Below, piece after piece: positions 28,738 to 60,825 of a stretch of 64,000 nt of DNA. Source of the stretch: Pleurocapsales cyanobacterium LEGE 06147 (GTDB lineage Bacteria; Cyanobacteriota; Cyanobacteriia; Cyanobacteriales; Xenococcaceae); assembly GCA_015207585.1 (NCBI GenBank), contig JADEWQ010000010.1:1-64000 (forward strand), read 5' to 3'. Under the pieces are notes generated by a model. The model had not been told where the DNA came from and did no database searches. It saw only the letters and a program-made list of their open reading frames with translations. Every line of letters begins with the position of its first letter. The stretch's first letter is position 1. The translations under genes were made by a program, and so were the position numbers.

Positions 28738-28845
28738 ATGCAAGTTAACGATCTGGGGTTTATAGCCACTATTTTATTCGTGCTGGTTCCTACAGTATTT
28801 TTACTGATTCTGTATATTCAAACTAGAAGAGAAACCAGCAGTTAA
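28738..28845 (+). CDS. psbM: photosystem II protein PsbM
   Basis: A 35-residue frame (below usual length cut-offs) reading [20 protein letters not shown] onward, with the ending RRETSS. This is the full PsbM sequence: one membrane span (about 6-27) and a short basic C-terminus. PsbM sits at the photosystem II dimer interface and aids dimer stability and electron flow at the acceptor side. The ATG lies after AGGGG at a plausible distance. Sequence from 24 bases beyond the stop belongs to an IS605-type right-end remnant. Confidence 0.95.
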
Positions 28846-28868
28846 TAAAAATAAACAGATTAGCAAAA

Positions 28869-29264
28869 TTTAACTCTGTGAGCGGGAAGTCCTCCACTTA
28901 GGCGTTAGCCAAGCGCTGGGGGCGCGAAGCGCCCCTGCGGTCAACGTTCTTGGGGAGCTTGTCTCCCCAAGAACGTTGACTTCGTGAGAAAGCGAACTTT
29001 TGATATAGTGGTAACAGGTAATCACTATTATCTATAGGCGAGAACCAAGCCCAGAGAAAAATTCAGAACTTCAGGAACTGGAGGGATAGCCTACTGTCTT
29101 GGTGTAAGACCTGCGGAATGCAGGCGAGGCAGCAGAGAGCCTGAAAGACGCTCCGCGTAGTGGGGCGGTTCAGGCTTCCGCCCCGCCAAAGTAGCTAGCT
29201 ACAGAGGCAACCGATTGGGTAGGAAGCCTAAGCTTACTCGCAAGAGAAGCGATAGGTAGTTCAC
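28869..29264 (+). ncRNA. omega-RNA-like right end of an IS200/IS605 element without tnpB
   Basis: Several blocks match the 3' part of cyanobacterial IS605-type elements as I know them: GAGAACCAAGCCC (29040-29052), GGAATGCAGGCGAGGCAGC (29114-29132), GAGAGCC, CCAAAGTAGC (29188-29197), GGTAGGAAGCC (29219-29229), a right-end hairpin CCTAAGCTT...GAAGC-TAGG, and the end GTAGTTCAC at 29256-29264. In active elements this region encodes the omega RNA that guides TnpB. Here psbM lies directly upstream and no tnpB or tnpA is present. Three palindromes are embedded: GGGGCGC/GCGCCCC (28919-28935), an 18-bp perfect stem (28940-28957/28963-28980) and GGGGCGG/CCGCCCC (29163-29185). Whether it is transcribed is unknown. 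Confidence 0.6.
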
Positions 29265-29269
29265 ACTCA

Positions 29270-29296
29270 TCCCCGACCATTACGGACGGGGATTTT
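29270..29296 (+). terminator. hairpin downstream of the omega-RNA-like locus
   Basis: CCCCG (29271-29275) and CGGGG (29287-29291) pair with extra C-C/G-G pairs inside, followed by ATTTT. It could terminate transcripts from psbM or the omega-RNA-like locus. Confidence 0.45.
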
Positions 29297-29334
29297 ACCT
29301 TATAAAAAGTCGGTTTAAATGAGTCCCAAACCAT

Positions 29335-40608: not shown

Positions 40609-40812
40609 TTATTGACCTAGGCTTGTCCAATCCACATCAATTCCTTCTAACAGCAACGAGGAGTTATATAGCTGTAGAATAATCAACAAAAAAACCAGGA
40701 ATAAGAGCATAAAAACTCCCATTATCGGAGTGGTACCCCAACCAGGAGCAACTTTACCATATTCAGAGTTTAAAGGTTTGAGAATATCTCCCAAACGAGT
40801 GCGCTGTGCCAT
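40609..40812 (-). CDS. psbH: photosystem II phosphoprotein PsbH
   Basis: A 67-residue protein beginning [20 protein letters not shown] and ending [10 protein letters not shown], the PsbH pattern. One membrane span (about 29-48, [20 protein letters not shown]). PsbH stabilises the photosystem II core and bicarbonate/QB site near CP47. It is divergent from psbN, whose start is 84 bases away; this head-to-head psbN-psbH arrangement is conserved in cyanobacteria and plastids. Confidence 0.97.
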
Positions 40813-60408: not shown

Positions 60409-60825
60409 ATGTCAAGCAATTACAGAAAAGGCTTTAGGTCAGTCTATAAACTTACCGCTCATATGGTGTTGGTGACGAAATACCGTAAAAAAGCAATTAA
60501 TCAAGAAAGGTTAGAACGACTTAAAGTTATATTCAAAGAGACTCTTGATAAATGGGAATGCGAGCTTCTAGAATTTAATTCGGAAAGCGACCACTGCCAT
60601 TTGATTGTTGAATTTAAACCAGAGGTTCAACTATCTAAATTAATTGCTAATTTAAAAACAGTAAGCTCAAGATTAATTCGCAAAGAATACCCTGAGCTTA
60701 GTCAAAAATATTTTTATGGAAAACCTTATTTTTGGACGGGCGCATATTTTGTCGCAACCTGCGGAGGGGTAACTGTTGAGCAGCTTAAAGCTTATATCGA
60801 GAAACAAGCTAGTCCTAAGAAATAA
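60409..60825 (+). CDS. tnpA: IS200/IS605 TnpA, Y1 HUH transposase
   Basis: A 138-residue protein with the HUH motif DHCHLIVEF (His62 and His64) and the catalytic Tyr129 in VEQLKAYIEKQ. Y1 transposases cut and join single-stranded DNA at hairpins near the element ends. The frame is complete (ATG 60409). It lies 50 bases from and divergent to the tnpB remnant. A 26-bp hairpin lies 24 bases after the stop and is its likely recognition site. The gene looks intact and could move this element or others with matching ends. Confidence 0.95.
   Translation: MSSNYRKGFRSVYKLTAHMVLVTKYRKKAINQERLERLKVIFKETLDKWECELLEFNSESDHCHLIVEFKPEVQLSKLIANLKTVSSRLIRKEYPELSQKYFYGKPYFWTGAYFVATCGGVTVEQLKAYIEKQASPKK

Follow-up and report, generated by a model that had tools for sequence, protein, structure and literature searches.

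A protein-free IS200/IS605-type element with a TnpB-type guide-RNA core behind psbM in a Pleurocapsales cyanobacterium

What kind of locus lies behind psbM in Pleurocapsales cyanobacterium LEGE 06147, where blocks typical of an IS605-type 3' end stand in a spacer? The original prediction, drawn from a 64,000-nt stretch of this genome (the window, contig C200 of the 6.23-Mb assembly; features located by position alone are on its + strand), described an orphan guide-RNA-like locus devoid of transposase genes that could be served by TnpB from elsewhere or be repurposed. Direct reading found all of the conserved blocks in the place where they had been reported. A nucleotide search with the 451-nt stretch 28850-29300 gave 36 matches in the same genome, the best non-self match having an E value of 9e-52; the similarity to IS605 right ends on which the prediction depended is therefore present. 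The predicted absence of tnpA and tnpB was likewise borne out, as no such open reading frame was found in the locus. Because the element has no Y1 transposase of its own, it is classed only as a non-autonomous derivative.

The locus proved to be more than a right end. Behind psbM (28738..28845; PF05151, E 4.7e-20; TIGR03038, E 2.5e-20), positions 28875-29264 form a complete, protein-free, two-ended element of the IS200/IS605 type. The guide-RNA right end is there as predicted, but a left end (28875..28987, beginning TCTGTGAGCGGGAAGTCC and containing hairpins) had been overlooked. This left end matches that of a tnpB element on contig C123, L032, at 79% over 131 nt and that of a tnpB-less copy, L008, at 85% over 74 nt, and the subterminal hairpins of both ends are common to the psbM element and its tnpA/tnpB-bearing relatives. 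All three palindromes that had been noted in the spacer exist, but two of them are in the left-end part: GGGGCGCGAAGCGCCCC (28919..28935), by direct reading, and a perfect 18-bp palindrome (28940..28980, arms 28940-28957 and 28963-28980), which is native to the left end since L032 has it too. The third (29112..29189) belongs to an arm of the RNA that varies among copies: L002 has a 20-bp hairpin at this site, the tnpB-linked copies L030 and L039 have other arms, and the palindrome of the psbM copy is interrupted relative to that of L002. The guide-RNA core and right end together cover 29060..29264 (134.3 bits, E 1.4e-29 in its own genome with the model R1 described below). Comparison among copies delimits a short hairpin, GTAGCTAGCTAC (29191..29202), and the right-end hairpin follows (29226..29257; helices 5-7 of alignment A5, with 93-96% of cells paired). 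The right tip, TTCAC (29260..29264), is kept in nearly all listed copies, and the alignments of L005-L007 stop there or one base beyond. Upstream of the core is a hairpin, AGGC-GAGAACCAA-GCCC (29036..29052), whose stem covaries, and before it an extended -10-like motif, TGATATAGT (29001..29009), that is presumed to be the RNA promoter; L002 (TGATATAGT) and L008 (TGTTATAAT) have a like arrangement, and a scan for two-hexamer sigma-70 promoters returned none at this motif.

The element is inserted directly 3' of TTTAAC (28869..28874), between the stop codon of psbM and the psbM terminator, a hairpin of the form ATCCCCG...CGGGGAT followed by TTT (29269..29293) that was recognized by direct reading and folding and was missed by a stricter terminator scan. 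Most independent copies are preceded on their left by the same hexamer, the target site and presumed TAM (L003/L032, L005, L006, L007, L008, L026, L076, L078, L081-L084 and L246), while others have variants of it such as CTTAAC in L035 and TTTAAA in L044. Insertion is thus 3' of a fixed short target, with no duplication on the right side. With the element removed, TTTAAC would almost abut the terminator ATCCCCG...CGGGGATTTT. Among 60 relatives, no match to the element was found at the psbM position; those with a readable psbM have a different spacer, which in several cases runs into a terminator-like hairpin within some 130 nt. In a relative of another genus (G002, L102 at 2011), psbM is directly followed by a left-end-like sequence, GTGAGCGAGAATACTCCC...AAAGCGAACATGATT, apparently a separate, independent insertion. 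A further observation concerns L026 (G000:C195:534-619), a minimal element of about 50 nt in which a left-end hairpin is fused to a right-end hairpin (GTGAGCGGGAAGTCTTCCGCTTACTCGTAAGAGAAGCGATAGGTAGTTCAC) after TTTTTAAC.

The RNA core was examined by comparison. For 11 right ends taken from this genome (six tnpB 3' ends, two MITEs and, besides the psbM copy, two tnpB-less copies), RNAalifold gave a consensus of 27 pairs, 16 of which show compensatory changes. The covariance model made from it, R1, detected 48 copies in this genome. Of these, about 16 stand immediately behind a PF07282 tnpB hit and about 12 lie at the ends of contigs, as collapsed repeats; some 20 have no PF07282 hit, and three of these retain a tnpB remnant by tblastn. 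When 101 copies from this genome, its family and its order were aligned, each of the 27 pairs showed two-sided change and 92.1% of cells were paired, as compared to at most 45% in slid controls and 64.6% in shuffles, controls that offset only in part the favouring of structure by an alignment fitted to the model. The psbM copy forms 27/27 consensus pairs, several of them kept by compensatory change relative to its nearest relatives, and has the fifth-best R1 score in the genome, though it is itself a training row. Its homology and shared structure with right ends lying directly after tnpB support its identification as a TnpB-type guide-RNA (omega/reRNA) locus. The tnpB genes with matching 3' ends that were to be sought in the genome are present, and service by TnpB in trans is plausible. 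Contigs C121, C142, C157, C163, C164, C169, C185, C215, C230, C234 and C238 (G000) are broken at, or close to, one and the same tnpB right end, that of a tnpB element whose many nearly identical copies collapsed in the assembly. In another right-end copy, L004 (G000:C237:39544-39674), the match is cut off at 102 nt, where other sequence takes over, perhaps that of a further insertion element sitting in a MITE.

These comparisons leave next to no room for a chance resemblance or an unrelated repeat. That reading could appeal to Rfam, which returned no family for the element either at the gathering score or at E values up to 10, nor for sister copies at E values up to 5; but the match to a second locus, the number of model matches in the genome and the covariation contradict it, and homology already refutes it.

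A protein-free element of this kind could also be a deletion remnant. One palindrome-associated transposable element (PATE), from Halanaerobium hydrogeniformans, consists of a left end, the last 58 nt of tnpB and a right end (PMC7290912) and, like the psbM element, is a two-ended derivative whose movement is presumed to occur in trans. On this reading the psbM element moves, or once moved, by the action of TnpA on the two ends, and its RNA-like middle part is a functionless fossil of a tnpB 3' end. Such derivatives are known in IS605 families (PMC7290912), the ends are themselves hairpins that TnpA needs, and 16 other tnpB-less copies, from this genome and its relatives, have the appearance of scattered derivatives; indeed, the ends alone would suffice for movement by TnpA, so that a function of the RNA is not required. 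We nevertheless consider the remnant reading rather unlikely. The psbM core retains all of its pairs through compensatory changes, among them those of long-range helices for which TnpA should have no use, whereas scattered copies such as L148, L197 and L224 show more broken or missing pairs. In addition, the class to which the psbM copy belongs (class I) has a covarying hairpin of its own, and in a sister group of tnpB-less copies (class II) several families have conserved a structured domain at the 5' side. PATE-like IS605 derivatives are already known; what is different here is the retention of a fully paired guide RNA, with all the pairs of the core, together with extra domains specific to conserved classes of copies and lacking from tnpB copies.

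The descent of the tnpB-less copies bears on the same point. On a tree of the core, separating the conserved tnpB-less classes from the tnpB-linked copies takes 2 state changes, a count from which the scattered rows and three long-branch rows were left out, against 22 with shuffled labels; the tree rests on 143 columns only, and near-copies cluster by themselves. The psbM copy is grouped with class I and class II tnpB-less copies of its own genome on a 97% branch. The 16 other tnpB-less copies (soloX) are scattered among tnpB-linked ones and take 13 changes on the tree, the pattern that recent deletions should leave. That all tnpB-less copies arose by independent deletion was also considered and rejected: it fits the scattered copies and, according to the tree, not classes I and II. 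The psbM copy falls with the conserved tnpB-less group rather than resembling a random tnpB deletion. When the 47 right-end columns were used alone, clustering was weaker (14 changes against 22 shuffled), and it may be due to those core columns that represent coding sequence in tnpB copies. The predicted label of orphan locus holds as far as the missing tnpA and tnpB go, but the locus is not isolated; it is one of a group of tnpB-less RNA elements with a conserved hairpin.

Class I is marked by a hairpin NNGC-GARAACCAA-GCNN upstream of the core, containing the GAGAACCAAGCCC block. It is found in the psbM copy, in L002, L008 and L143 of the same genome and in L198 of another genus, and several class I copies also carry the extended -10-like motif before it. 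Over eight copies, 3/4 pairs of the stem covary and 87.5% are paired, against at most 50% in slid controls. A search with the corresponding DNA pattern returned just the four known copies of this genome and one in G007, the remaining matches being noise-like; certain class II copies from distant families (L269-L271) have the hairpin as well. In tnpB, the codons for DENQV (GACGAGAACCAAGTC; L032 1410-1424) closely resemble the class I hairpin GGCGAGAACCAAGCC (window 29038-29052), and the hairpin may, from this resemblance, derive from tnpB sequence. The class I copies with a left end are the window copy at 28875-29264, L002 1447-1754 and L008 1270-1574, and each sits between a photosynthesis-type gene (psbM, hli-like and chlB) and the terminator-like hairpin of that gene. 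A tie of class I to photosynthesis genes was rejected: it holds for 3/4 copies of this genome, but L143 adjoins a MORN-repeat-like gene, and the neighbours of class II are mixed.

In class II, made up of other tnpB-less copies, the same RNA core is preceded on its 5' side by a conserved domain some 120 nt long, which the psbM copy lacks. This domain has 28 pairs, 96.3% of them formed and 14 with two-sided changes, and slid controls reached at most 50%. A model of it, R2, has matches in 16/340 genomes of the order, in 11 genera, and in every listed R2 copy the domain is followed by the RNA core and then by a TTCAC-like end, without room for tnpB between. The domain was absent from the 25 tnpB loci tested and from the tested class I copies. 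In a species-level genome collection, 10/10 pattern matches carry both parts, including one in Crocosphaera watsonii WH 8501. The class II loci are L202, L203, L219, L222, L232, L235, L260-L271, L276, L005-L007 and L144, and their domain is without an Rfam family. Three of them, L005-L007, are tnpB-less MITEs of about 385 nt in the same genome as the psbM copy, with which they share the right end, the RNA core and the target, and they have in addition the long structured 5' domain; they are 96.6-99.7% identical, occupy three unrelated sites, are each preceded by TTTAAC and end in TTCAC. Their near-identity at unrelated sites indicates that tnpB-less elements with this RNA moved recently. Class II is possibly of more interest than the psbM copy itself. 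One class II copy (L298 1524-1783) lies on a contig binned as Candidatus Gracilibacteria, which is probably misbinned cyanobacterial DNA.

Judging by their sequences, candidate helpers are encoded in the genome: one or more intact TnpBs accompanied by such an RNA, and a TnpA that is likewise intact. The TnpB on C70 is a 400-aa protein with PF12323, PF01385 and PF07282 and the RuvC motifs GIDLG/VVENL/DRDINAA, and its gene has its own R1 RNA (113 bits) and a related left end. The TnpA is a Y1 transposase in the window itself (60433..60825; PF01797, 138.9 bits, no stops). The psbM locus is therefore probably, in our estimation, a non-autonomous element of the IS200/IS605 type whose only encoded product is a TnpB guide RNA and which exploits TnpA and TnpB in trans. 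In ISDra2 (PMC8612924), reading of the guide from the flank after the right tip, identity of TAM and target, and cutting at the donor joint have been shown or proposed. From the anatomy and homology of the psbM element one would predict a like course of transcription, binding and retention. TnpA from another copy would peel and paste the element via its ends. A transcript started at the element's own -10 motif, or read through from psbM, and stopping at the psbM terminator would carry the RNA and a guide derived from the flank, which the TnpB of a tnpB-bearing relative would bind and trim. If matters stand as established for ISDra2 (PMC8612924), the target should be the site left empty, TTTAAC followed by the guide ACTCATCCCCGACC; TnpB would cut there, and repair from a sister copy would restore the element. 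TnpB would thus probably keep the element in place, in trans. The interrupted arm of the psbM copy and the overlap of its guide with the terminator hairpin could impair the RNA.

The guide had been predicted to start at 29265, after TTCAC, and this position fits: the presumed guide is 16 nt of flank (29265..29280; its length taken by analogy with ISDra2) that would overlap the 5' arm of the psbM terminator hairpin. The position of the locus inside the psbM transcription unit could suggest a repurposed host RNA, either an element of the psbM 3' UTR or a guide for regulation or defence. TldR-type RNA-guided regulators, like the psbM copy, have a TnpB-type guide RNA outside an autonomous transposon, and the class I copies behind the hli-like and chlB genes are two more in a comparable setting. 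We regard repurposing, the second possibility named in the original prediction, as improbable. The insertion is not common to relatives, guides vary with the flank and are different at every copy, no conserved neighbour genes were found for class II, and no chromosomal match besides its own site was found when TTTAAC plus the guide was searched in this genome at up to 3 mismatches. A single site for TAM plus guide is as expected of a transposon guide, unlike that of a regulator. The psbM locus also differs from the TldR type, which is mentioned in PMC13418256, in having no tldR gene and no conserved guide.

ISDra2-type tnpB elements (PMC8612924) share with the psbM element both ends, insertion 3' of a short motif, a right-end RNA and a 3' guide read from the flank. 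They differ from it in possessing tnpA/tnpB and lacking the extra upstream hairpin; the tnpB-coding part of other elements is represented in the psbM element by a short non-coding hairpin. In the literature searched, which did not extend to the original OMEGA paper or to Meers et al. 2023, there was no account of such tnpB-less guide-RNA classes.

TnpB guide RNAs are usually seen as the tail of the tnpB gene that they serve. If the conserved protein-free classes are what they appear to be, a guide RNA would be able to exist as a selfish unit in its own right, with service in trans. We propose tentatively, and with somewhat less than even confidence, that guide-RNA-only selfish elements form a cyanobacterial lineage of their own, which evolved additional RNA domains (in class I the GARAACCAA hairpin, in class II the ~120-nt 5' domain) that enable them to compete for, or control, the TnpB and TnpA of other elements and so parasitise both transposition and RNA-guided retention. 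These elements would then offer natural stand-alone scaffolds with added domains, and the question of who pays for RNA-guided retention of a transposon would become testable. Class II is present in a cultured strain, Crocosphaera watsonii WH 8501, and so is open to experiment. Elsewhere in the window, the Rfam model of the Plastid-psbN 5' UTR has a match above its gathering score at 40711-40771.
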